IMG/VR virus record: IMGVR_UViG_3300034073_003174
Location: 1 to 23,689 of that record
Length of the DNA: 23,689 nucleotides
Source: a virus
Strand: one strand, 5' to 3'
The first letter of the stretch is position 1; each line of letters starts with the position of its first letter. Shown in pieces: positions 442 through 22,031 of this stretch. The notes below the pieces were generated by a model that saw nothing but the letters and a program-made list of their open reading frames with translations, was not told the DNA's origin and ran no database searches. The position numbers were made by a program, and so were the translations under genes.

Positions 442-608
442 TAGTCAGAGTCTTTCTGTGCGAGAGTGATTATCGAATGTAGCAGAATAGTGAACCCTGT
501 AATCAGGGTTGCCTGCCGTAAGGTAGGACCCGAAAGGGTGATGAGAACCATGCCTGTACCTGCCCAGGTCCATGCGTTGTCCACAAGGTAGGTCAATACT
601 TTCTTCAT
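441..608 (-). CDS. Small two-helix membrane protein, possible second holin or antiholin
   Basis: This is a 55-residue reading frame starting MKKVLTYLVDNAWTW and ending AQKDSD. Two hydrophobic stretches lie at about residues 14-29 and 33-50, separated by a short polar turn with an arginine. Its ATG overlaps the stop of the PA14-like gene (TGATG at 606-610). Its stop overlaps the ATG of the holin-like gene (TAATG at 439-443), so it is firmly embedded in the operon. Two consecutive small membrane proteins before an endolysin are common in actinophage lysis cassettes, where they may act as holin and partner. Function is inferred from position and topology only. Confidence 0.6.
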   Translation of the reverse strand: MKKVLTYLVDNAWTWAGTGMVLITLSGPTLRQATLITGFTILLHSIITLAQKDSD

Positions 609-2020
609 CAGTTTCTGATTCTAGTAGGTGGGGGCAGCATGGTCAGAACGGCTCCGATAGCCACCAAAGTACGGCGTGTCCCGACAGGGATGTTGGAGCC
701 GACAGGGACGTAGGTGTCTAGACCCGTCTTGAAAATGTCTACGGTTTCTTCGAAGGTTTCACGGATTTCCTCGGGTGCATCCTGCACGGCTTCGACAAGG
801 GCTTCAATTTGGGTGTTATCCAATTCGCTAACATCCAGCGCTTCGAAGATTTCTTCGGCTTGGCTGGTGCTAACTACAGCAAGCACTTGTGCGTTTGTGG
901 CTAACTGGGCAGCCTGGTCGGGGCTGGGGGCGGTCTCCAAGATGGCGTCAACCGCTTTAGCGACCTGCTCAGTGGAGGCGTCAGGAGCCCCTAGGACGGG
1001 TTCGGGGGTGTCTGGGACGGTTTCGGGGGTTGCGCTCACGAGAGGGGCTGTGGACGCGACTGGTGGGATTGTGGTGGCAGGGGCTAGGGTGGTTGGTATC
1101 TGAATAGTGGCGGGGGGAGCGGGCTGTGTGGTTGGAGTTTCTGGCAGGGTTGTTGGGGGTGGTGGTGATTCCGTTGTGGTTGTTGGGGGAACGGTCGTGG
1201 AAGGTTCAGTCGTGGTTGATGGCGGTGGAGGTACCCATCCTTGTGTGGTTGACGTGGCAGGTGGCAACGTACTCGTAGTGGTTGCGACCTGAGTCGTGGT
1301 GGTGGTACTTTCTTCTGTGGTTGTCGTGGAAGGAGGAAGCGATGAAGTGGTTGACGTTGGTGTTTCTGTTGTCGATGTACTGGGCGCTTCGGTCGTCGAG
1401 GTCGTAGTTTCCTGAACTGTCGTAGAAGTGGTGGTCGTGGCAGGGACAGTCGTTTCTAGGACAGTAGTAGTAGAGGTCGTCGTCGGGGTCGTGTATTGCG
1501 TTGTAAATGCCCATTCAGGAACAATCTCCCAGTAGCCGTCGTCAATCTTCCATGCGAGCATATAGCACGTTCCGCCTCCAGCCTCAAAGAACCAGCCATC
1601 AAGAGGATTGGGTCCTGCGTCTAGTTCAAGTGTGGCGATAGGGGACCATGAGCAACCTTTGAGGTTCCATGTTCCGAACTCTTGACCAGAGATGTTGATG
1701 GTTCCGCCGTCATCTGCGGCAACCATGAACTGAATCGTGTCATGCTCAGGGATGTTGATGAACCCTGTGTAGTGGACCATGAAGAAGTCGTAGCCGCAGT
1801 CTTGGAATGGTTCACCGTTGAAGTTGCGGTTGATGTTGTTTTCGATTTCACTGCCGCAAGACAGGTAAACGTCATCAGACCTGATGGGTGGTATCTGGTC
1901 GATTGTGTAGCCGACAGCGTGTAACCCTGGTTCGGGTTCAGCGTTCGCCTGTTGTGGGAGTAACGCGAAGAAGGCGACTGGGAGGAAGACTAGCCAGCGG
2001 CTATCCCAGAATCGACGCAA
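608..2020 (-). CDS. Secreted PA14-like protein with Thr/Pro-rich mucin-like stalk
   Basis: This is a 470-residue protein. Residues 1-27 form a signal peptide: basic start, hydrophobic core LVFLPVAFFALL, and a cleavage-type ANA at 25-27. Residues about 32-170 look like a PA14 fold, with a FMVAADDGG core (DDG at 103-105) and four cysteines (55, 75, 122, 152) that could form two disulfides. Residues about 174-345 are a Thr/Ser/Pro linker. Residues 349-435 are acidic and helical. A short hydrophobic stretch (451-462) with flanking arginines ends the chain. The start codon is TTG at 2020, inside the end of the preceding gene. PA14 domains usually bind carbohydrate. It could be a cell-surface or exported protein acting late in infection, or a virion adhesin. 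The signal peptide favours export. Confidence 0.7.
   Translation of the reverse strand: MRRFWDSRWLVFLPVAFFALLPQQANAEPEPGLHAVGYTIDQIPPIRSDDVYLSCGSEIENNINRNFNGEPFQDCGYDFFMVHYTGFINIPEHDTIQFMVAADDGGTINISGQEFGTWNLKGCSWSPIATLELDAGPNPLDGWFFEAGGGTCYMLAWKIDDGYWEIVPEWAFTTQYTTPTTTSTTTVLETTVPATTTTSTTVQETTTSTTEAPSTSTTETPTSTTSSLPPSTTTTEESTTTTTQVATTTSTLPPATSTTQGWVPPPPSTTTEPSTTVPPTTTTESPPPPTTLPETPTTQPAPPATIQIPTTLAPATTIPPVASTAPLVSATPETVPDTPEPVLGAPDASTEQVAKAVDAILETAPSPDQAAQLATNAQVLAVVSTSQAEEIFEALDVSELDNTQIEALVEAVQDAPEEIRETFEETVDIFKTGLDTYVPVGSNIPVGTRRTLVAIGAVLTMLPPPTRIRN
986..1501 (-). repeat. Low-complexity Thr/Ser/Pro codon tract
   Basis: This stretch encodes the linker of the PA14-like protein (about residues 174-345), with runs such as TTTTSTT and PPPPTT. 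On the plus strand it appears as irregular GTGGT/GTCGT repeats. It is not an exact tandem repeat. The mixture of ACC, ACG, ACT and ACA threonine codons suggests selection for protein composition and not recent DNA slippage. Confidence 0.8.
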
Positions 2021-2234: not shown

Positions 2235-2744
2235 CTAACTGTTCTTTATTCCGTAAAGAGATGCGGATGTGTATTGAACGAACTTGTAAGTGCTATCTAA
2301 ATACAATTTGATTGATGAAATGGATGCCGTGTTTGACCACAGCCCAGCAATAAGTTCGGGGTATGCGGTCGTGCCATTCTGCTCGTGAACACTGTCTATT
2401 GAAAAAGATTTATTTGTTGAACCAGCATAGTTGGGAATATAAATTGAAAAATTTGTAAAGGTGCTAGAGGTGTTACTCGCAGCATTGATGTCCATGATTC
2501 TGTTGGTAGACAGATTGATTGAGCCAGCAGCGGCACCCGTTCCATACACCCATCTACTTGAATAACTGGAGGTGTTGCCGTTGAAACTGATGTTTGAGTA
2601 ACTGAATGTTGCTGATTCGTCTGTCCTTACTGAACTAGCCAAAACAAGGTCGGTGTAGGTCTGTGGGATTGACCCGAACTCGATGCTCGCTGCGCCACCA
2701 GAGCCAACCGTTACCGATTGAATGAGCGTGTAAGTGTTAGCCAT
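2235..2744 (-). CDS. Tail fibre-like protein, third of three tandem paralogues
   Basis: This is a 169-residue beta-rich protein. It shares an N-terminal pattern (YTLIQSVTVGSGGAASIEFGSIPQTYTDLVL) and a C-terminal SLYGIKNS with the two genes before it. The middle is diverged and rich in Ser, Thr and Asn, as in fibre or receptor-binding tips. The gene has no detectable enzyme motif. Its ATG overlaps the stop of its upstream paralogue (TAATG). By hand count, 2281-2700 is about 44-45% GC, lower than the 53% over 2761-2940 in the middle paralogue, suggesting a different recent history. A role in host binding is inferred from position and paralogy. Confidence 0.65.
   Translation of the reverse strand: MANTYTLIQSVTVGSGGAASIEFGSIPQTYTDLVLASSVRTDESATFSYSNISFNGNTSSYSSRWVYGTGAAAGSINLSTNRIMDINAASNTSSTFTNFSIYIPNYAGSTNKSFSIDSVHEQNGTTAYPELIAGLWSNTASISSIKLYLDSTYKFVQYTSASLYGIKNS
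2650..2669 (-). repeat. 20-bp direct repeat, copy 1 (in third fibre paralogue)
   Basis: The plus-strand 20-mer beginning TCGGTGTAGG is identical at 2650-2669 and 3159-3178. It encodes the shared IPQTYTD core of the two paralogues. Surrounding bases are diverged, so it could act as a recombination seam. Confidence 0.8.
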
Positions 2745-3250
2745 TACGCAGCCTTGATTCCGTACAGAGTGAAGGTAGAACCGATTGAGAAGGTGCGTGT
2801 CGAGGCAAGGTCAAAGGTCATAGAGTCAATCGCGGCAGTTGAACCCCACATACCAACAGTCGCATCCACACCGACAGCAGCAGCGTTCGCACGAGCCAAC
2901 ACCGTCTTGTTCGTGGTTGTGTTCGCATAGTTGAAGATGTTGATTGTGTGAACCGATGCACCCTGCGTAGTTGTCACCGCACCGTAATAGGTGAGAATGA
3001 TGTATCCATAACCATCGGAACGAGTGTTGCGAATAGAACCAGCCGATGTTCCGTCACCATAGACAGATGTGCGTGAATACAATGCGGAACTATCAGCATT
3101 GAACGAGACATACAAATCTGACTGCACACTGGAGAACGCATTGACGACCACCACCAAATCGGTGTAGGTCTGTGGGATACTTGACAGCGTTACCGTCTGC
3201 ACAGCGGAACCCAAAGTGGTTGTGCTAATCGGCTCATAGGTCGCTGGCAT
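2744..3250 (-). CDS. Tail fibre-like protein, second of three tandem paralogues
   Basis: This is a 168-residue protein with start MPATYEPISTTTLG. It shares the SIPQTYTDLV core at about residues 25-34, a central GDGTSAGS turn and a C-terminal FTLYGIKAA with its neighbours. The predicted fold is all beta, with no signal peptide or enzyme motif. The ribosome site is an AGGG stretch a few bases before the ATG. Short beta-sandwich proteins ending in LYGIK are frequent among phage tail accessory proteins. The three-gene array suggests duplication followed by divergence of receptor-binding surfaces. Exact role is unknown. Confidence 0.65.
   Translation of the reverse strand: MPATYEPISTTTLGSAVQTVTLSSIPQTYTDLVVVVNAFSSVQSDLYVSFNADSSALYSRTSVYGDGTSAGSIRNTRSDGYGYIILTYYGAVTTTQGASVHTINIFNYANTTTNKTVLARANAAAVGVDATVGMWGSTAAIDSMTFDLASTRTFSIGSTFTLYGIKAA
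3159..3178 (-). repeat. 20-bp direct repeat, copy 2 (in second fibre paralogue)
   Basis: Identical to 2650-2669. The centre-to-centre distance of 509 bases equals roughly one paralogue, so recombination between the copies would delete or duplicate one gene unit in frame. Confidence 0.8.
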
Positions 3251-3252
3251 AA

Positions 3253-3843
3253 CTATCCCTTTATCCCGTACAACGCAAAGTGTGAATACTGAGCCATATT
3301 GCTACCAATAAAAGTCACCTGAATACTTGTTACAGCAGAAGTGCTACGCCACGAACCAGACAAAAGCGTTGCCTTTCCACTCCCATTCAAATCTACACCA
3401 GACAAACTTCTCACAGTCTTGTATTTGTTTGTGTCTGCATAATCAAGAATATCAATGACAGCCACACCAAACATAGAAGCACTTGCGCTTGCAGCAGCAG
3501 ACCTGCCAAGAAACATGTATGTGTTATTTGCTGTTGCACCAGATGTTGCGCTTGCTCCATCACCAGAAATGTTGTGGTCTGAATATGTTGAACCCGTGTC
3601 GCTATTCAGGGTAATTCGCAACTGGTCTTCTGTCGCTGCTCTATCCGTTCTGGCGAGGCAACGAAGTTGCAAATGCTTATAAGTCGCAGGAATAGAACTG
3701 AAACTAACCGTTGCGCTTCCGCCAGAACCAACAGTCGTTGTGGCAATGGACTCAAACGAGCCACGCTCCAAAACAAGACCAGACCCCAACCACTGCCCAA
3801 CCAGGGTCGAAGGACGAGTACGCTTCCCGTAACCAGCAGCCAT
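3253..3843 (-). CDS. Tail fibre-like protein, first of three tandem paralogues
   Basis: This is a 196-residue protein. It carries an extra N-terminal segment of about 30 residues (MAAGYGKRTRPSTLVGQWLG) before the shared FESIATTTVGSGGSATVSFSSIPATY pattern. It ends in HFALYGIKG. The extra basic and aromatic leader may attach it to the tail or to the preceding Gly-rich protein, whereas the two downstream copies lack it. The ATG overlaps the stop of the Gly-rich gene (TAATG). Three lines of its coding DNA (3301-3480) count to about 41% GC, lower than the middle paralogue. Function is inferred from context. Confidence 0.65.
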   Translation of the reverse strand: MAAGYGKRTRPSTLVGQWLGSGLVLERGSFESIATTTVGSGGSATVSFSSIPATYKHLQLRCLARTDRAATEDQLRITLNSDTGSTYSDHNISGDGASATSGATANNTYMFLGRSAAASASASMFGVAVIDILDYADTNKYKTVRSLSGVDLNGSGKATLLSGSWRSTSAVTSIQVTFIGSNMAQYSHFALYGIKG

Positions 3844-9030: not shown

Positions 9031-10164
9031 CTAATCCTCCAGCAGATACCCTGATTCTTTCAAAGCATCTCTGACGTTCAACACTACATGATAGGTCTGC
9101 CCAGGGACAAGGTCTATGTGGTGGGCACCGATGTCGGCTTTGATGCGGCGGTTGACCCTGACGGCTGTGGTGACGTCCCCTGCCCGCACCCAGTTGGAAT
9201 CAACGGTGTTGCTGGTGGGTTTGACGATTTGGAGGAGTTGGTTGGCTGAGGTTTCCCAGTTGAACGCAGCGGTTTCTGGGGCTGTGTCTAATGCTTGCTG
9301 GGTGTAGCGGTCACGGTTGTTGTACATGTCCCAGAGGGCTTCGGCTAGTTCTTCTCGGTTGGGTTCTTCCCAGTTGCCGATGTCCGACCACTTGCCGATT
9401 GTTGCTGGTTGCGGGGTGGCGGAGATGCGGTGGGTGGCGAGGTCTGAGAATTCGCGGTGACCGTGGGCATCCGTGAGAATGGTGGGGATTCCTGCGGACA
9501 TTGCTTGGAGAGGCATAAGTCCAAAGCCTTCGCCACGGGAAACAGAAACGAAACAGTCCATGCTGTGCATGAGTGCGGCTTCTTCTTCTAGGGTCATCCA
9601 GTCTCGATGCACTACCACGTTCGGGTAGTCGATGCGTTCTGGGGCAGACCTATATGGCGGAACTATCTTGATGTGCAGTTCAGTGTTAGGCATACCTAAC
9701 ATGTTGAAGACTTCTAGGACAACATCAAGTCCTTTGCGGTGCCATTCGGACCCGCCACACAGAATCTTGAAGCGGTCCGTTTTCGGTTGCGGGTTCGGAC
9801 ACCAGATGGTGCGGTCTACGCCGAGAGGTATGACGTGGACATTGTCATGGTATTGGGAGAACAGGTCAAAGTTGTGGAGGCAAGGGACGATGACGGTTTG
9901 GAATTGCGGGAGGTACTCGAAGAATTTGGGTGGGAGTTTGTCTGATTCCCACATGGTGAGGATGGTGGCTTTCTGCCCGTGATACCAGCCTTTGACCATG
10001 TCTGGTTGCATCGCATACACCACATGCTCGGCACGGTCATTCAAGGTGACTTTGGTGGCGAGGGTGTCTCTGAGTGAGACGAACATGCGACCGTACCCGA
10101 CATGGGGTAGGTCTGGTCCGATGAACGCTAAATGTTTGGCAGTATCCCCGTTTCTACCTGCCAT
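9031..10164 (-). CDS. Glycosyltransferase, GT-B fold, GT4-like
   Basis: This is a 377-residue protein. Residues 10-30 hold an N-terminal donor-fold start (KHLAFIGPDLPHVGYGRMF). Residues 111-116 read VIPLGVD and about 133-148 read ILCGGSEWHRKGLDVV, with the basic R143/K144 pair that contacts donor phosphates in this family. Residues 206-232 read VSVSRGEGFGLMPLQAMSAG. GT4 enzymes normally have Glu-x7-Glu here; the first Glu is E212 but the second position is Q220. The last ~40 residues (VPGQTYHVVLNVRDALKESGYL) look like an added domain. The gene overlaps the previous one by 37 bases and sits among virion genes. It probably adds sugar to a virion protein, or less likely to the host surface. Substrate unknown. 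Confidence 0.8.
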   Translation of the reverse strand: MAGRNGDTAKHLAFIGPDLPHVGYGRMFVSLRDTLATKVTLNDRAEHVVYAMQPDMVKGWYHGQKATILTMWESDKLPPKFFEYLPQFQTVIVPCLHNFDLFSQYHDNVHVIPLGVDRTIWCPNPQPKTDRFKILCGGSEWHRKGLDVVLEVFNMLGMPNTELHIKIVPPYRSAPERIDYPNVVVHRDWMTLEEEAALMHSMDCFVSVSRGEGFGLMPLQAMSAGIPTILTDAHGHREFSDLATHRISATPQPATIGKWSDIGNWEEPNREELAEALWDMYNNRDRYTQQALDTAPETAAFNWETSANQLLQIVKPTSNTVDSNWVRAGDVTTAVRVNRRIKADIGAHHIDLVPGQTYHVVLNVRDALKESGYLLED

Positions 10165-10403: not shown

Positions 10404-10696
10404 GATATGTATGCTCCGTATCCAGCGGCGGTCAACGATGCAACCTCGGTTGCGTCCACTTCTGTACTGTGCCCACCATAGTAAACCTTTGAGATGAGCG
10501 TGTAGTCGGATGGTTGGCGTTCGGTGTAGGTGCCGTTGGTGAGCAGGAAGATGTTTCTTCCTCTGCCCGAGGCTTCAATATGGACACCGAGTTTGTTGGC
10601 GATGCGTTCTTCTTTGCTGATGGGCAGCATGGACATGACATCTTGAATGATGGCTGGTACGACGAAGTTGTCTGTTGGTGGGGTGAAGGTTGCCAT
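10400..10696 (-). CDS. Short virion-type protein sharing a C-terminal domain with the GSG-repeat protein
   Basis: This is a 98-residue protein. Residues about 45-98 (RGRNIFLLTNGTYTERQP, then LISKVYYGGHSTEV, then ASLTAAGYGAYIS) align well with the last ~50 residues of the 344-residue gene just upstream. The latter reads YRLSDGTYTTTDP, LITRTYYGGHDIF and ELTAAGYGASIT. The N-terminal half (TPPTDNFVVPAIIQ) is different and has no repeats. Such a domain probably attaches the proteins to a common site on the virion, perhaps as a head fibre or decoration. That is inference. The ATG overlaps the preceding stop (TAATG). Confidence 0.65.
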   Translation of the reverse strand: MATFTPPTDNFVVPAIIQDVMSMLPISKEERIANKLGVHIEASGRGRNIFLLTNGTYTERQPSDYTLISKVYYGGHSTEVDATEVASLTAAGYGAYIS

Positions 10697-11730
10697 TAGG
10701 TGATGCTGGCTCCGTATCCTGCGGCGGTGAGTTCGGTTACTTCTTCGTCGGTCAAGAATATGTCATGCCCACCGTAGTAGGTGCGGGTGATGAGTTCTGG
10801 GCGTCGCGGGTCTGTGGTGGTGTAGGTGCCGTCGCTGAGACGGTAGAGGTTTTTGGCTCGGATGCCTTGCGGGGTATGGGCGAACAATCTGTCTGGTGCT
10901 TCCTCGGAGAGGCGTTCAGCGAATGGGTAGGTGCGGGTGGTGGGGACTCGGAAGATGTGGGACTTCAGCCAATCGGCTGTGCCACTTCCGCTTCCCGAAC
11001 CTGTGCAAGCACGCTTGAGCGCTCTAGCGCCGACCGACGTATCCGTACCCGCGCCCGAGCCAGTTCCCGTTCTGAGCGCAACAAGAATCCGTGTCGTCGA
11101 CGACCCGCCAATGCCTTGACCGCTGCTGGTTCTAAGTACAACACGGGTGACGACAATAGCAGATGAGCCCACACCAGAACCTGTTGCAGTGCGAGCAGGG
11201 TTGATATTCCAATCTGCCGTCCCTGAACCTGTGCCTGAACCTGTAGCAGTGCGCAGCGCGACCCGCACACCTGATGCTTGCGACGTGCCAGTTCCCGAGC
11301 CTGTCGCAGTGCGCTTGTAAACCCGAATAATGTTTTCGATTGTTGAAGCAGAACCAGCGCCAGACCCCGTAGCAGTACGAATTGCTATAAGCACTCTGTT
11401 TGCGGTAGCCGTTCCAGCCCCTGAACCTGTAGCGGTTCGTTGTTTGAGGATGTTGGCTGTAGCCGATGCGGTGCCTGTGCCTGTGGCGGTTGCGGTAACA
11501 GTTACTGTGGCGCGAACACCCAAATAGAAACGTCCGCCGTTGCCGTAGAAACCCGTGTGGTAATCGACGAGACGGTCAAGGCGGCTGACTACGCGCCCTG
11601 ATGCGGTTTGCTGTGTACCGTTCCCTGGACCTGTGGCGGTTCTGGAGACTGTGCGGAAATAGGTCGCCCGATAAAACGGGTGGGTATCAACGAATCCTTC
11701 TGTAAATCCTGTTACCGCAGTGATAGCCAT
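10696..11730 (-). CDS. GSG-repeat virion fibre-like protein
   Basis: This is a 344-residue protein. Residues 1-72 form a unique head with one outlying repeat-like unit (RTATGPGNGTQQTASG, 30-45). Residues about 73-256 consist of eight to nine units of mostly 20 residues, each beginning RTATGSGxGxxxA and ending in a hydrophobic strand such as VRVALR. Residues 257-344 are a globular end sharing DGTYT, YYGGH and LTAAGYGA with the next gene product. There is no signal peptide. Regular 20-residue beta-turn repeats suggest a rod or fibre on the virion. It follows the capsid and a small decoration-type gene. Role inferred. Confidence 0.65.
   Translation of the reverse strand: MAITAVTGFTEGFVDTHPFYRATYFRTVSRTATGPGNGTQQTASGRVVSRLDRLVDYHTGFYGNGGRFYLGVRATVTVTATATGTGTASATANILKQRTATGSGAGTATANRVLIAIRTATGSGAGSASTIENIIRVYKRTATGSGTGTSQASGVRVALRTATGSGTGSGTADWNINPARTATGSGVGSSAIVVTRVVLRTSSGQGIGGSSTTRILVALRTGTGSGAGTDTSVGARALKRACTGSGSGSGTADWLKSHIFRVPTTRTYPFAERLSEEAPDRLFAHTPQGIRAKNLYRLSDGTYTTTDPRRPELITRTYYGGHDIFLTDEEVTELTAAGYGASIT
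10963..11514 (-). repeat. Tandem ~60-bp coding repeats (GSG units)
   Basis: Eight to nine degenerate units of mostly 60 bases encode the RTATGSG repeats (one is 66 bases, residues 118-139). On the plus strand the recurring core resembles CCTGTAGCAGTGCG. Units differ in sequence, so the array is old or under selection against identity. Low-identity units limit slippage. Confidence 0.8.
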
Positions 11731-15732: not shown

Positions 15733-16464
15733 TTATCCTTGCAACCATTCTGACAGAGCGCCCATGTAGGAGAGGTAGTCGTTGGCTTCTGATTCTACGG
15801 GCATCTGCTTTTCAATCTGGCTAGCAGCAAATGTCTCTGCCGACTGCGGGGCGGTGATGGTCCCACCGAGTGCGGAGCGCTTCTGATACTCCATCATCTG
15901 CTTCTGATAGGTCTCGACCATTCGGTTCAAGTCTGCATCTGGAACGGTGCGCCCGATGGTCGACTGTGCCGCCTTGGTGAATACGGCCTTCAGGTCGTCT
16001 GGGTTGTCGAGACGGTAGGTGGGGAGTTTGGTTGCGGTTTCGAGTTCGGGGTATTCGGCTAGATAGGCGAGAGCCTGGTCGAGTGATTTACCGCGCAACG
16101 GACCGTTCGGGTCAGAGTTCAAAATGTTGATTCGAGTGAGAGCCTTACCGAAATAGGAACGGAGTTTGCTGTCGGAACGATTGTTGACGTTGCTCGGCTT
16201 GTAACCTGGGAACGCTGCCATCAACTGTTTGTTGTATGAAGCAAGTTTGTCTGTGGACACCTTGTACAAAATGTTGATGTCTTTGGTCGTGAACGTGTAT
16301 GGCTGGTCAACCGTTCCCCACGAGGTTGGAATCTTGTAGTTCGGGTCGACTCCACCCATCGGGCTTCCAGCAGAATCTCCGCCAAGGGAACCAGCACCTA
16401 CTGGGTCTTCGAACACGCCCGAACCGCCACCTTCTTCCATTGGTTTTACGTTTCTTGGAGCCAT
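15733..16464 (-). CDS. Candidate internal virion protein, 243 residues
   Basis: The start is taken at 16464 (MAPRNVKPMEEGGGSG), where the ATG overlaps the giant gene's stop (TGATG) and AGGA lies five bases before it. An in-frame ATG 17 codons earlier sits inside the giant gene and is less likely. The first ~45 residues are Gly/Pro/Ser-rich and probably unfolded. The remainder is helical: NILYKVSTDKLASYNKQLMAAF, DDLKAVFTKAAQSTIGRTVPD, RMVETYQKQMMEYQKRS. It ends with APQSAETFAASQIEKQ. No enzyme motif is seen. Its place in a run of helical proteins after the giant gene suggests an inner-core or ejection partner. Confidence 0.6.
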   Translation of the reverse strand: MAPRNVKPMEEGGGSGVFEDPVGAGSLGGDSAGSPMGGVDPNYKIPTSWGTVDQPYTFTTKDINILYKVSTDKLASYNKQLMAAFPGYKPSNVNNRSDSKLRSYFGKALTRINILNSDPNGPLRGKSLDQALAYLAEYPELETATKLPTYRLDNPDDLKAVFTKAAQSTIGRTVPDADLNRMVETYQKQMMEYQKRSALGGTITAPQSAETFAASQIEKQMPVESEANDYLSYMGALSEWLQG

Positions 16465-19400
16465 CACATTCCTATTTCTGCTGGTTCGAACTCTCTTGAC
16501 AGTATATTTTCCCACAACGGCGCAAAGTCTGGGTAGGTATCCACCAACTGTTCACCGATTCTGGTCAACTGTGCCCGCATCGCACCAGCGTTCTTAGCCT
16601 TACGCCAACTGTCATTAGCCAGCGACGGGTCCTGACTCGTTGCCAGGTCGATGCTGCGCTTGCGGAAATCCCAGTACTGCTGCAAAGCCTTACCGCCATC
16701 AAGTTTCAAAACGGCAGGGTCCTTGACCATCTTTTCAATCTGTCGAATCTGGTTGACCAGTTCGCGTTCAAGTTCTCCGCTAGTTGCAGCAGGACTCCAC
16801 ATAGGGAACTGCGTCTTCAGTTCGTCAGACTTTTCCTTGACAAGCGCCTTGAAGTTTTCTGAACGCTTTACCTGTTCCTCGGTGAAGCCTTGCTTGGCTC
16901 CAATGTTCACCAACTGGTCTTTGAAATGGTTGTATTGTGCCCAGGCAAGGTTGTTGAGTGCGCGTTCCTGGCGTTGCTCAATGTCGCGCGGCTTGCGCAA
17001 ACCCGATGAACCTTGCGCCCTGTACGCCGCGGGGTCATATTCGCCTGTTTGTGGTCCAAGCCAGCCAGCGACAAGCGGATATTTGTCGACCAGCCCAGGG
17101 TTAGCGGACTGCCATTGGGCGTATTCCCTGGTTACTTGGAGTCCTGGCGCAGCCTGTGTCGCCCCAGCCAAGAACACCCACGCCCCGTCGCCGTACTTGT
17201 CGAACAATGCGACTACGGCATCGGTGTAGGAGCCACCGTTTTTTCTGGCTTCTTCTTGCATTTTGCTGAAGTCATCAAGCACCTGACCCTGGGTGACGTT
17301 TTCTGCGCCAATCTCGGTGAAGTATTTGGTGTATGAGGCTCCTGGCAGAAAGATGCGTCCAAGTGCTTTGATGGCGAGAAGGTAGTCGGTTTTGGCTACA
17401 GCGTCCTCAATGATTGCTTCGCGTTCTTCTGCGGTAAGAGGAAGACCACGCCTATTTGCTGCAATATTCGTGAGAACGGCATTGACCGTGGTGGCTCGGA
17501 TGGAGTCGTTTGTTTCGGTAGAAGAAAGTTGCTGGAGGTTGTCAAAAAAGTCTGTGCCTGTTTTTCCTCCGCGGGAAGCGGCTGCTGCGATAAGCCCCTG
17601 TCCCCAGGCTGGGACCAGATAGTCCGCAATTTTGGAACGGGTTTGTGGGTCACCGAACGGGAACACGGTAGCCCTCAACGACTGGAAAGCCTGGTTATTG
17701 GGGAGGATGCTGTCCATAACCATTGCGCCGACTCCGAAGAATCCTGGTACTGGAGACCCGAGAAGGCTCAGGTTTCTGGTTCTAATTCGTTCTTGTGCGT
17801 TCAAACCTAGGAGCGCATACACCTCTTTCGAGAATGGGATTGCAACACCCTGTTCACCTGTGTCTTCGTCGGTGTAAAGAACACCAGTGTTTTCGAGCGC
17901 TTGCTGACCAACCCGTACTTTTTCGAGGGCGCTTGGCTGTTCAGCCATTGCCCTCATCCACACAGACCACTGTTCTACCCATGCGTCCATAAACGCGAAC
18001 GTCAAACTGTGGCGATAACCGACATAGGAACGGTTAGATGAATCGAATAGGAGTTGGTCGACCTTTTGGTTGCCGTACATTTCACCCAACACTTCAACCT
18101 GTTTGCGGGTTGCTGTGCCAGTGGCGAACTGCACTTCTTCCCTGATGGAGTCACGCAACCATTTTGGAGCGTCGCTTTGTTCCAATGCGTCAGCCATTTT
18201 TGCTGCTTCTTCTGGCAACATGGCTGGCATGAGTTCGCGGATGCGCTTCCATTTCTGGTAGTCCTTGTATGGTCCACGAGCGTATTTTGCTGAGGCGTTT
18301 CGATAAAGCGCAAATGCCCTTGTGAACAAACGGTCTTTGGCTTGAATTGCGTCTTGCGCAACTTCCGCGGCGAACGGGGCGAATTCGGGGCTGTTTGGGT
18401 TTTGCAACAAATTGTTTTGCACCCACGTTCTGAATTCTGTGGTTGGTTCGTACAGGTTGACGGTTCGAACCGTTTTTACTTTCCATGCGTTCGCGTCAAG
18501 CACGGGGTTCTTGCCCAGTTTTCCTGTTGCGACAACACCGATTGCGACTGGGTCGCCAGCGGTGCGGGTCAAAATATCTTCAAGAATGGTGCGAATCCAC
18601 ACCATTTGACCTTCCATGCTGGTCAATGGGGTGATTGAGGACATGCCTTTTACGCCCTGTGTGCGCAACATTTTTGCCCAAATATCCTCAAACACTGGCT
18701 TCAAATCGCCGTAAAGGAAACGGTTGGGTAGTTGTTCTACTGCGTCTTTCCCGCCAGCAAGCATGGCTCGTGCAACCTCCCGATATTCGGGGGTGTCGGA
18801 CATTTGGACTAGGTCGCGGGCAGTCCCCGTAACCCAGTTTTTGTTGCGCTGGCTTTTCGGGTCAATAATTTGCTGACCATTGAAACCAATCTGAATATCT
18901 TTTTGTACTGATTCTGGCATTTGACGGACATAGTTCAATACCGATGGGTCGCCATATTGGTCAGCCATCAAACCTTTTGACAGTTCCGCCATCTTGCGCC
19001 CAGTGCCAGGGAGTGACTCGTTGATTCGGTCATTGAACAGGTCAATCTGCGCCTGCATTTGTTCTTTCGTTCCGTTTTCTGCAACAAACTTATCGAGTTC
19101 CTTGCGTAAACGGTCTGCGGTTACTGAATCACCTACGGCTTCAGCCGACTTGATTTTGGCGACAAGGTCGTCGTAGTGTTCAAGTTTCGGCATCAGTTTT
19201 TGAATTTCTTTTGCGTTTTTGATTTCCACGCCGAACGTGTTGATGTTGACATGACCGTAAGCGCCGAGTGCTTTTAGCGCAGATTCGTCAAGGGATTCGG
19301 TTACAGCGATTCGGAGGATTTCGTCTGGGAGGATTCGGGTGACCATTCGAATTGGGAGGGGTGCGCCGAGCGCTACTGGCTTCAGGTAGTTCGCCTGGAT

Positions 19401-22031
19401 TTTTTCGAGCCAAGAAAACTTTTTATCTGACAACATGAAGTTGACTGTCCTGGCGATTCGTTTTGCGTTTTCTGGGCTTACACCATTAGCAATCATTGCG
19501 GTTTCGTCCCTGAATGGGGCGAACGCCTGATATGTGTTTGTTACAGCCAGCACCACTTCACGGAACTTTTCTGGCGCGACCATCATGAAACCTTTTTGCA
19601 TCAGGTCTGTTGAGCGCAATACTTCCGCATCGGCAAGCCATGGGGTTGGATAACCACCACCTACAGCGGTGAAAGACCACTGCTGTACGTCGTCTGTTTT
19701 TCCAGCCCAATCCGCTACTTCGTCAATAAAGGATTCTGGTACACCCTTCTTGCGGAGTTGTGGCGCAATGATGGTTTTGGTGAATTGTTTTGAAAGCGCG
19801 AATCGTTCGGATACTTCGCCCTTGGCTACAGCCTTCATCAGTGCTGAAAGCATTGCGTGACGGTCCGCCTTCGGCACCTTCATTACAATCATCAAACGAT
19901 TGGCGTCGCGTACGGACGCGATTGGGTCTTCGAATGAAAAGAATGTTGACCGTGGCATACGCGCCAACTGGCGTGTCACCCCAGAGGTCCATTGGGCGAT
20001 AGCGGGTCCTGTCTGGTTCACCCACTTTTTGTAGACACCTGGGACTTCTCGAATGTTGTAGAGCGGGTCACCAGAATAGACACCGTCTTTGAGAACGCGG
20101 TGGATGTCTTTGAGGTCGACTTGTTTGCCTGCTGCGCGGGCTGTATCAACTATGTCTTGGATGGCGACAGCGAGACCTGGGGGGATTGAACCGAGGAAAT
20201 GGTCGTAGAGTTCACCGACATTATTGAATGAGCCGAGTTTTTCAAGGGTGACTTGTCCTTCTCGGGTGTATGGCATTGCGTCGATTTCGCGTGGCACGAA
20301 TCGTGGCGTTTCGCCAGCGGGGTCGATGACGCCGAGGCGTCGCTTGATGCTGTTTCTGTCGGAAAGAATGGGCAGGTTGGGTGATGGCGGGTTGTCCATC
20401 GCGGCTAATGGAAGGTTGCGAACGGTATCTTCAACGACTTGGTCGACGTATTGCTGTACTTCTTCTGGGATTACGGTGCCTTCTGGGAGGACGCCAGCGA
20501 ATCTTGGTGCTTCTTCGCCTGCTTCACGGGCACTATAGAACGGCAAGTCAATGACGTCTTTGGGTGTGGTTGATGCGCCTGCTGCTTGACGTTCTTTTCT
20601 CCACTTGTCCAGTAGTGCGTCTTTGATGATGCCGTCGTCGAGAACTGTTAGTGCGGCTTTTTCGGTCAGGTTGAATTTGCGCATCAACGCTTGGACTGGG
20701 TCGCCCATAAACAAACCTGGGTCGGTGACCGCGGTGAATGTTCCGTCAACTATCCCAGAGATGAGCGAAGCGACGTAACCGTTTTGGTCAATGTAACCTT
20801 CCTGGATGAGGGGGCTGATTGTGGCTCTGCCCAGTGTCCAGGTTTGTCCGTTGACGGTTGGAAGTGCTGTGTCGTGGGCTTTGCGTGCTTCCTCAGCGAT
20901 TTTGCCTTCTGGAAAGAATCCTGTGCCGATGTCAATTTTTTCTCCAGCGATAGCGCTTTTTGCGATTTGGCTGAGGATATTTCCTTCGACGACGAGTTGG
21001 TTGAATTTTTGTAGTGAGTCTGGTTCGACTGGGACGGATGCTACGCCGAGCGCAGAGAGCGGTCCTCGGTTTGTGATGGCGTATTCGAAGGTGCTTTTGC
21101 TTGCCTGTGCTGCTGCAACGAACCCTGTGGTTACTGCACGGACTCCGCCCTTGGCGATTTCTCCTGCGCCTTTCAAACTGATGCGGGATGGCAGGTTGAT
21201 TCCTGCGACTTCTACTCCGCCTGCTGGACCGATGTGGTCTGGTGCGGCAAAACCTAATGCTTTGAATGGGAGTTGGAGTGTGCTGATTGAGCGTGCCATT
21301 CCTTCTTGGAAGGATGAGATGAGGTTGGAGGAGATTGCTTCTGGGGACCAGGGTTTTGGTCCGTCACCGAACGCTGCTCGTGCATCCCACATGGAACGAA
21401 GATTTGGGAATTTTGCGCCAAGGTCGGCGTATGCGTCAAACGTGCCAGGGATGCGTTCACCTTTGGTGTTATAGGTTCCTTTGGCGACCATGCCTGGGAT
21501 TGCGTACCATTCGTCTTCCGTTTTTGAAAGAAACAGTTTGATGACTTGTGTTTCTTGGAGGTCGAGAAGTTCTTTGGCGTCTTTGATTTCTGATGGGACT
21601 GGGATGTTGCGCCAGTTCAATCCGTTTTCTGGGTTGATTGGGTCTACCTGGTCCCACCATGCTGGAGCCTTATCGGAACGAATGGCGAGTTCCTGTGGGT
21701 CCATGCGCAACAGGTCGACAAGGGTGTATGGAAGGTTCGGGTCTTGTTCTGGGGTTGCGCCTGCGGCGAGTGCGCGACGGTCCTTCAACTGTTCCTTGTA
21801 TTTTGCTGCTTGGACAGCGGAGTTGATGTGGACTTCTTTGTAGTCGACAGGAATGTCGGATACGCCGAGTGCGGCGGTTACTTCTGGGTTGGTGTAGTAA
21901 CTGCCGTGGTATGCGCGTGAGAGACGTTCAGCGGTGTCTGGGGTGTAGCGGTCTACGATTTCTTGGCGGCGACGAGCGAGTGCTTCTGTTTCCCGTGCTT
22001 CAGCCTCAAGTTGCTGAACAGTTTTTTTCAT
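16464..22031 (-). CDS. Giant 1855-residue candidate internal (ejected) virion protein
   Basis: This is one uninterrupted frame taking almost a quarter of the window. It opens with a charged coiled coil (residues about 1-35, VQQLEAEARETEALARRRQE). There is a weakly hydrophobic Ala-rich stretch near 300 (VTTGFVAAAQASK) and amphipathic segments near 900 (LPIRMVTRILPDEIL). A second coiled coil lies near 945-1000 (AKIKSAEAVGDSVTADRLRKELDKF), and a Gly/Ala/hydrophobic stretch near 1430 (PGFFGVGAMVMDSIL). The end is helical. I see no HExxH, lysozyme or polymerase motif. The ATG overlaps the preceding stop (ATGA). Length, helical makeup and position after the portal fit an inner-core protein like T7 gp16, ejected to cross the cell envelope. 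Homology is not shown; a polyvalent, toxin-like or antirestriction protein is the alternative. Confidence 0.6.
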   Translation of the reverse strand: MKKTVQQLEAEARETEALARRRQEIVDRYTPDTAERLSRAYHGSYYTNPEVTAALGVSDIPVDYKEVHINSAVQAAKYKEQLKDRRALAAGATPEQDPNLPYTLVDLLRMDPQELAIRSDKAPAWWDQVDPINPENGLNWRNIPVPSEIKDAKELLDLQETQVIKLFLSKTEDEWYAIPGMVAKGTYNTKGERIPGTFDAYADLGAKFPNLRSMWDARAAFGDGPKPWSPEAISSNLISSFQEGMARSISTLQLPFKALGFAAPDHIGPAGGVEVAGINLPSRISLKGAGEIAKGGVRAVTTGFVAAAQASKSTFEYAITNRGPLSALGVASVPVEPDSLQKFNQLVVEGNILSQIAKSAIAGEKIDIGTGFFPEGKIAEEARKAHDTALPTVNGQTWTLGRATISPLIQEGYIDQNGYVASLISGIVDGTFTAVTDPGLFMGDPVQALMRKFNLTEKAALTVLDDGIIKDALLDKWRKERQAAGASTTPKDVIDLPFYSAREAGEEAPRFAGVLPEGTVIPEEVQQYVDQVVEDTVRNLPLAAMDNPPSPNLPILSDRNSIKRRLGVIDPAGETPRFVPREIDAMPYTREGQVTLEKLGSFNNVGELYDHFLGSIPPGLAVAIQDIVDTARAAGKQVDLKDIHRVLKDGVYSGDPLYNIREVPGVYKKWVNQTGPAIAQWTSGVTRQLARMPRSTFFSFEDPIASVRDANRLMIVMKVPKADRHAMLSALMKAVAKGEVSERFALSKQFTKTIIAPQLRKKGVPESFIDEVADWAGKTDDVQQWSFTAVGGGYPTPWLADAEVLRSTDLMQKGFMMVAPEKFREVVLAVTNTYQAFAPFRDETAMIANGVSPENAKRIARTVNFMLSDKKFSWLEKIQANYLKPVALGAPLPIRMVTRILPDEILRIAVTESLDESALKALGAYGHVNINTFGVEIKNAKEIQKLMPKLEHYDDLVAKIKSAEAVGDSVTADRLRKELDKFVAENGTKEQMQAQIDLFNDRINESLPGTGRKMAELSKGLMADQYGDPSVLNYVRQMPESVQKDIQIGFNGQQIIDPKSQRNKNWVTGTARDLVQMSDTPEYREVARAMLAGGKDAVEQLPNRFLYGDLKPVFEDIWAKMLRTQGVKGMSSITPLTSMEGQMVWIRTILEDILTRTAGDPVAIGVVATGKLGKNPVLDANAWKVKTVRTVNLYEPTTEFRTWVQNNLLQNPNSPEFAPFAAEVAQDAIQAKDRLFTRAFALYRNASAKYARGPYKDYQKWKRIRELMPAMLPEEAAKMADALEQSDAPKWLRDSIREEVQFATGTATRKQVEVLGEMYGNQKVDQLLFDSSNRSYVGYRHSLTFAFMDAWVEQWSVWMRAMAEQPSALEKVRVGQQALENTGVLYTDEDTGEQGVAIPFSKEVYALLGLNAQERIRTRNLSLLGSPVPGFFGVGAMVMDSILPNNQAFQSLRATVFPFGDPQTRSKIADYLVPAWGQGLIAAAASRGGKTGTDFFDNLQQLSSTETNDSIRATTVNAVLTNIAANRRGLPLTAEEREAIIEDAVAKTDYLLAIKALGRIFLPGASYTKYFTEIGAENVTQGQVLDDFSKMQEEARKNGGSYTDAVVALFDKYGDGAWVFLAGATQAAPGLQVTREYAQWQSANPGLVDKYPLVAGWLGPQTGEYDPAAYRAQGSSGLRKPRDIEQRQERALNNLAWAQYNHFKDQLVNIGAKQGFTEEQVKRSENFKALVKEKSDELKTQFPMWSPAATSGELERELVNQIRQIEKMVKDPAVLKLDGGKALQQYWDFRKRSIDLATSQDPSLANDSWRKAKNAGAMRAQLTRIGEQLVDTYPDFAPLWENILSREFEPAEIGM

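Follow-up and report, generated by a model that had tools for sequence, protein, structure and literature searches.

PA14 domains are not always lectins. In the yeast Epa and Flo adhesins, which are eukaryotic and GPI-anchored, a PA14/GLEYA lectin head is combined with a Thr/Ser-rich stalk and a surface anchor. The clostridial RsgI-type PA14 sensors (PDB codes 6qdi and 6qe7) are anti-sigma factor proteins that signal through a cytoplasmic anti-sigma domain. In the RTX adhesins, MpPA14 and MhPA14 (PDB codes 6x7j and 6m8m) are ligand-binding domains on long exposed proteins, with a DDG at the calcium and sugar site; MpPA14 is thus part of an adhesin, and its DcisD pair and loop 11 hold the calcium ion and the sugar (PMC8092209). 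Phage-made envelope proteins that block adsorption are represented by the superinfection-exclusion lipoproteins Llp of T5 and Cor of T1 and phi80, which are small and bind FhuA. The T5 llp gene adjoins the receptor-binding gene pb5, a precedent for an adsorption-blocking gene at such a position (PMC9586334). In Drexlerviridae, a standalone SH3 protein with a proposed wall-binding domain is encoded beside the holin and endolysin genes, and no stalk or membrane anchor is described for it in the accessible part of that report (PMC13164509).

The protein analyzed here is encoded on an IMG/VR virus record of 23,689 bases, referred to as the window. It shares with MpPA14 and MhPA14 the PA14 fold and the DDG, but each of these is one domain within a large bacterial adhesin, whereas the phage lectin is a protein of 470 residues that has four invariant cysteines and is predicted to be anchored in the membrane. 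Its best sequence and fold matches are the RsgI-type sensors, although no anti-sigma domain is visible in it. With Epa and Flo it has the type of head in common, but no relation was found in the stalk or the anchor. Llp and Cor are not lectins and have no homology to it, and the Drexlerviridae SH3 protein has a different fold. A group of Acidimicrobiia surface proteins (loci L170-L179) has the signal peptide, the stalk, the C-domain, and the 2-TM module, whether in one fused protein or split over two genes, but the heads of these proteins are DUF4082, RCC1, or DUF285 or are absent, and L170 lies among chromosomal genes. In the published literature, we found nothing relevant on lectin display by phages of such hosts.

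The stalked protein and its PA14 fold

A reading of the sequence alone had described a signal peptide with an ANA site, a PA14-like DDG core with four cysteines, about 170 residues of Thr/Ser/Pro, an acidic helical domain, and a short hydrophobic end. It also placed the gene between fibre-like and lysis genes, with a TTG start overlapping the neighboring gene. All of these features were recovered on closer analysis, and the gene lies on the minus strand (Table 1). The 5' end of the lectin gene overlaps the upstream ORF (2001-2225) by 20 nucleotides, and the relatives begin with GTG or ATG, at the position of the TTG or close to it. The N terminus shows a hydrophobic peak at residues 7-23 followed by an ANA/E site, and a crude signal-peptide test was passed by 90 of the 101 unique relatives. 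Calls of signal peptides and topology were made from hydropathy and motifs. Thr, Ser, and Pro make up 68% of the 171 residues of the stalk, which contains no Lys or Arg. Of the 101 residues of the C-domain, 21 are acidic and 3 are basic. The C-terminal hydrophobic run (residues 446-461) is followed by RIRN, and a basic tail is found in 93 of 97 relatives.

Table 1. Positions of the lectin gene, its parts, and the adjoining genes in the window
Feature	Position	Strand	Description and basis
VanY-type D-Ala-D-Ala carboxypeptidase (start), endolysin candidate	2-187	minus	Cut by the window end; similar to L042:1818-2372
84-aa membrane protein, holin-like	187-441	minus	One-base overlap with the two-TM gene; hydropathy, neighbors, PHROG 26427
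55-aa two-TM partner	441-608	minus	Start shares one base with the lectin stop; kept after relatives, fused elsewhere
Stalked PA14 lectin gene	608-2020	minus	470 aa; TTG start; stop at 610-608
Hydrophobic helix and basic tail, predicted membrane anchor	611-682	minus	Residues 447-470; hydropathy, model
Acidic helical C-domain	683-985	minus	Residues 346-446; common to cellular Acidimicrobiia proteins; AlphaFold and profile matches
Thr/Ser/Pro stalk	986-1498	minus	Residues 175-345
PA14 domain	1499-1939	minus	Residues 28-174; four invariant cysteines; AlphaFold model and Foldseek PDB matches
D103-D104-G105	1706-1714	minus	Putative counterpart of the Ca/sugar-binding DcisD motif; invariant, aligned with the DDG of 6m8m; DcisD role from PMC8092209
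Signal peptide	1940-2020	minus	Residues 1-27; cut expected after ANA; hydropathy peak and A-x-A, conserved in relatives

Two scans of IMG/VR yielded 70 and 80 loci, and the second scan confirmed 535 stretches. The stalked protein had been regarded as unusual from its sequence, but with relatives encoded in 535 IMG/VR stretches it is no lone oddity. One relative, L002, is identical to the lectin of the window. Exactly four cysteines occur within the first 230 residues in 93 of the 101 unique relatives, and 91 of them contain an (A/S)DDGG motif. Where it could be computed against relatives, dN/dS over the PA14 domain was about 0.07-0.13. The reading frame is therefore not a chance ORF, and such low values are unlike those of an arms race.

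The match of the lectin to the Pfam PA14 family (PF07691) has an E-value of 0.0019 and a score of 18.5 bits, under the gathering score of 24; fused relatives with another PA14 head score above it. When the PDB was searched with phmmer, PA14 proteins ranked first, although weakly (E-values of 0.019 and 0.044). An AlphaFold2 model was calculated from a 25-sequence alignment, and its pLDDT is about 90-96 for most of the PA14 domain, drops to 74-79 around residues 61-80, and exceeds 90 across most of the C-domain, which is helical. Foldseek with the lectin model gave 67 matches in the PDB at E ≤ 0.001, and the 50 listed were nearly all PA14/GLEYA domains or proteins that carry them. The matches include the sugar-bound domain from Marinomonas primoryensis, RsgI-type sensors, and Epa/Flo adhesins. 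The PA14-like fold suspected from the sequence is thus present in a confident model. A weak Pfam match of the C-domain to DNA_pol_A was dismissed as chance.

In the 25-sequence alignment, cysteines 55, 75, 123, and 152 and the D103-D104-G105 motif are invariant, as are Glu-146, Gly-148, and Gly-149. The DDG of the lectin lies opposite that of 6m8m in the phmmer alignment. At the sequence level, the Asp-Asp (DcisD) motif of calcium-dependent PA14 lectins is found as D103-D104, which is kept in the 25 sequences, and the GGG loop of the lectin is also invariant, in line with the calcium and sugar site of MpPA14. The tip of the lectin probably binds a glycan through a calcium-dependent DDG site.

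The two-TM gene, the lysis block, and the neighboring genes

The stop codon of the lectin gene and the ATG of the 55-aa gene have base 608 in common. The 55-aa protein contains two hydrophobic segments by hydropathy, and its only NCBIfam match is weak and below the cutoff; NCBIfam gave no match for the lectin or for the fused protein of DSL-LC01 described below. A first junction scan found a two-TM gene directly after the lectin gene in 88 of 90 loci with flank, the two others being L054, in which the genes are fused, and L051, in which a 2-TM frame lies further on. A stricter HMM count placed the two-TM gene after the lectin in 84 of 90 relatives. In 56 loci, the two-TM gene starts at an offset of -1 or -4 relative to the stop of the lectin gene. 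These and the following neighbor counts describe the lectin family and not phages at large, the loci having been retrieved by similarity to the window.

The one-base overlaps in the window run from the lectin gene through the two-TM and holin-like genes to the VanY gene. By HMM count, linkage to the holin-like gene is found in 78 of 86 relatives and linkage to VanY in 63 of 79. The locus L042:1818-2372, close in sequence to the VanY start of the window, matches Pfam VanY with an E-value of 1.2e-15. Because the lectin gene is part of a tightly overlapping block that continues into the holin-like and VanY genes, the lectin should appear late. The PHROG family matched by the 84-aa protein carries the label nuclease, which looks wrong because hydropathy and the neighboring genes suggest a holin. 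Searches of named phages by tblastn with the 84-aa protein and with a relative of the 55-aa protein gave no matches.

On the other side of the lectin gene, the adjoining fibre-like genes are rarely kept beside relatives (2-9 of 68), which gives no sign of a tie between the lectin and a particular tail fibre, and the idea of the lectin and a tail fibre as a co-evolving pair was dropped. The three minus-strand genes at 2235-2744, 2744-3250, and 3253-3843 encode tandem proteins of 168-196 residues that start similarly (SIP..Y core) and have LYGIK as their common C terminus. Their sequences make them likely paralogues, and they lie beside just 2-3 of the 68 relatives with enough flank. Elsewhere on the minus strand of the window, a group 1 glycosyltransferase (9031-10164; Glyco_trans_1_4, E = 2.3e-12) is encoded amid virion genes, a protein of 344 residues (10696-11730) consists largely of RTATGSGAG-like repeats, and a protein of 1,855 residues (16464-22031) lies in the virion gene region. 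The latter two have no Pfam match.

WhiB is a mark of actinophages (PMC10202952), and it is encoded in 14 of 20 long relatives, among them the contig of L002. No integrase was found in these 20 relatives, whose contigs may be incomplete.

Anchor modules and heads in phages and in Acidimicrobiia

The C-domain has no match in Pfam, NCBIfam, or the PDB. The model of the C-terminal anchor is of moderate confidence (mean pLDDT 63.6), and Foldseek found nothing convincing for it in the PDB (best E-value 2.2). Anchoring by sortase was rejected, as an LPXTG motif is absent before the hydrophobic end; the conserved stretch there is Y.P.GS.IPV..RR.

A genome scan with the whole-protein alignment A1 gave no cellular relatives. 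When 84,980 genomes were scanned with the C-domain alignment, two MAGs labeled Ferrithrix thermotolerans, a species of the Acidimicrobiia, were identified. The C-domain gave matches in eight of 395 sampled Acidimicrobiia genomes, seven of the matches being strong (E-values of 1e-32 to 1e-43) and one marginal (8.7e-4). In a 396-genome sample of the phylum, it was found solely in two genomes already included in the class sample. The Acidimicrobiia MAG proteins L170 (118-1419) and L171 (301-1650) consist of a stalk and a C-domain without a recognizable head, and each is followed by a separate 2-TM gene. The neighbors of L170 look chromosomal by sequence (ABC transporters, amidase, acyltransferase). 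In two cellular genomes, the display proteins L174 (409-2295) and L175 (1060-3357) lie beside the same two neighbor genes, judged by sequence, which suggests a conserved chromosomal locus. The cellular heads are DUF4082, RCC1 repeats, DUF285, or none recognized, and no lectins were recognized among them.

All of the strong cellular loci, as well as the second MAG locus L171, have a homologue of the 2-TM protein (E-values of 3e-8 to 2e-16). The 2-TM part is fused in five cellular loci, and it forms a separate frame directly after the C-domain protein in L170, L171, and L176; the 2-TM protein of L170 is 53% identical to that of phage L028. The phage C-domain is homologous to the cellular copies, and the 2-TM part is fused or adjacent to it. 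Because the cellular loci carry homologues of both parts, the two-part unit of C-domain and 2-TM protein exists in cells and phages alike. On these homologies, the anchor is one that some Acidimicrobiia use to display surface proteins of their own.

Fusion of the two parts is also seen in phages. DSL-LC01 is a metagenome assembly for which an Actinomycetia host was predicted by its authors (PMC10611076). Residues 891-936 of its protein WJZ48438 (944 residues) match a stand-alone 2-TM protein (BLASTP E-value of 6e-8). L054 aligns in the same way, and both fusions have the same linker joining the C-domain helix to the 2-TM part. Fused loci were counted in one scan with one query, the C-terminal region of DSL-LC01, which found 24 loci. 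A single ORF encodes both the stalk protein and the 2-TM part in no fewer than 14 of the sequences inspected, and overall this arrangement is present in DSL-LC01 and in 15 or more further phage loci.

Lectins of unrelated folds serve as heads of the fused proteins. Pfam identifies an L-type lectin (5.7e-43) together with a SUEL lectin (1.5e-7) in L155, a C-type lectin (1.5e-5) in L167, and another PA14 domain (7.4e-8) in L148; other heads have no Pfam name. The proteins L151 and L160 are 98.9% identical over the head and stalk, compared with 38.9% over the leader and 66.4% over the anchor, from which it follows that cassettes exchange. In several large phages the fused gene is 0.6-2.5 kb from the holin-like gene and on the opposite strand, so that co-transcription with the lysis genes is not universal, and in others it lies directly upstream.

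Proposed display of the lectin and its possible purpose

We propose that the lectin gene and the 55-aa gene form one surface-display unit. The lectin would be exported by Sec and held in the cytoplasmic membrane by the acidic C-domain, the C-terminal helix, and the two-TM partner, so that a mucin-like stalk would carry the PA14 domain at its tip, outside the infected cell. Anchoring with the head outside is argued from the export signal, the C-terminal helix with its basic tail, and the dedicated 2-TM partner; membrane insertion is not certain because the helix is short (about 16 residues). The sequence-only reading had envisaged a secreted, stalked, carbohydrate-binding surface protein. A surface lectin is still the best reading, but in place of free secretion, membrane anchoring together with the second gene (608-441) is likelier. 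That the lectin is displayed and anchored on the surface of the infected cell, whatever its purpose, we regard as likely. Phages would swap different lectin heads onto the Acidimicrobiia-type anchor. The wider proposal is that a display system shared with the host enables phages of Acidimicrobiia and of related actinobacteria from aquatic habitats to dress infected cells, before lysis, in interchangeable lectins drawn from four or more unrelated folds. It appears to us somewhat favored on balance.

As for purpose, the lectin may coat glycans on the host surface, so that neither progeny nor sister phages would adsorb again to the dying cell or to debris from it. This fits the expected late timing of the lectin and has a precedent in T5 (PMC9586334), but the fibre-like genes that flank the lectin vary. 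We hold such masking to be the likeliest of the uses considered, though a tentative one. Tethering of virions, which the sequence-only reading had put forward along with a block on re-adsorption, received no specific support in this analysis. A displayed lectin could also make infected cells adhere to algae, particles, or further cells, and the burst would then take place among new hosts. The heads of the cellular relatives (DUF4082, RCC1, DUF285) are typical of surface proteins, a diversity of heads suits varied targets, and the PA14 lectin MpPA14 itself sits in an adhesin (PMC8092209). We nevertheless consider adhesion unlikely, given that the PA14 family is strongly conserved and that linkage to the lysis genes leaves adhesion little time to act.

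The same linkage could instead mean that the anchored lectin takes part in lysis, binding wall or surface polysaccharide and helping the membrane to separate from the wall or positioning the VanY peptidase. The lectin gene is the first of the block with one-base overlaps leading into the holin-like and VanY genes, the linkage is kept in the relatives, and the proposed wall-binding SH3 protein encoded next to the Drexlerviridae lysis genes offers a parallel, as far as the accessible part of that report describes it (PMC13164509). However, cellular homologues occur without lysis genes, which shows that the anchor does not belong to the lysis machinery. Moreover, the holin-like gene and some of the fused genes are on opposite strands, and the lectin has no catalytic domain. 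We judge a lysis accessory to be unlikely as well. The 55-aa gene could easily be mistaken for a holin gene, since its product is small, has two predicted TM segments, and is encoded within the lysis block. Yet homologues are fused to or follow chromosomal Acidimicrobiia surface proteins, and phages in which a holin-like gene is present separately have them fused to the stalk protein, which leaves little room for a holin or antiholin lying beside the lectin by accident. There is least to be said for the lectin as a virion fibre or receptor-binding protein: a Gly-rich fibre-like gene is nearby and other annotated phage proteins carry PA14 domains, but the signal peptide, the C-terminal helix with basic tail, and the 2-TM pairing and fusion are all common to cellular surface proteins, and we give a virion role only a very slim chance.

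If display on the infected cell is correct, lytic phages of abundant aquatic actinobacteria use exchangeable lectins on a host-type anchor to remodel the surface of the infected cell, and testable names become available for three unannotated pieces, the stalk protein, the C-domain, and the 55-aa gene. If masking is right as well, this would be a carbohydrate-based form of superinfection exclusion or of protection against debris in Gram-positive hosts.
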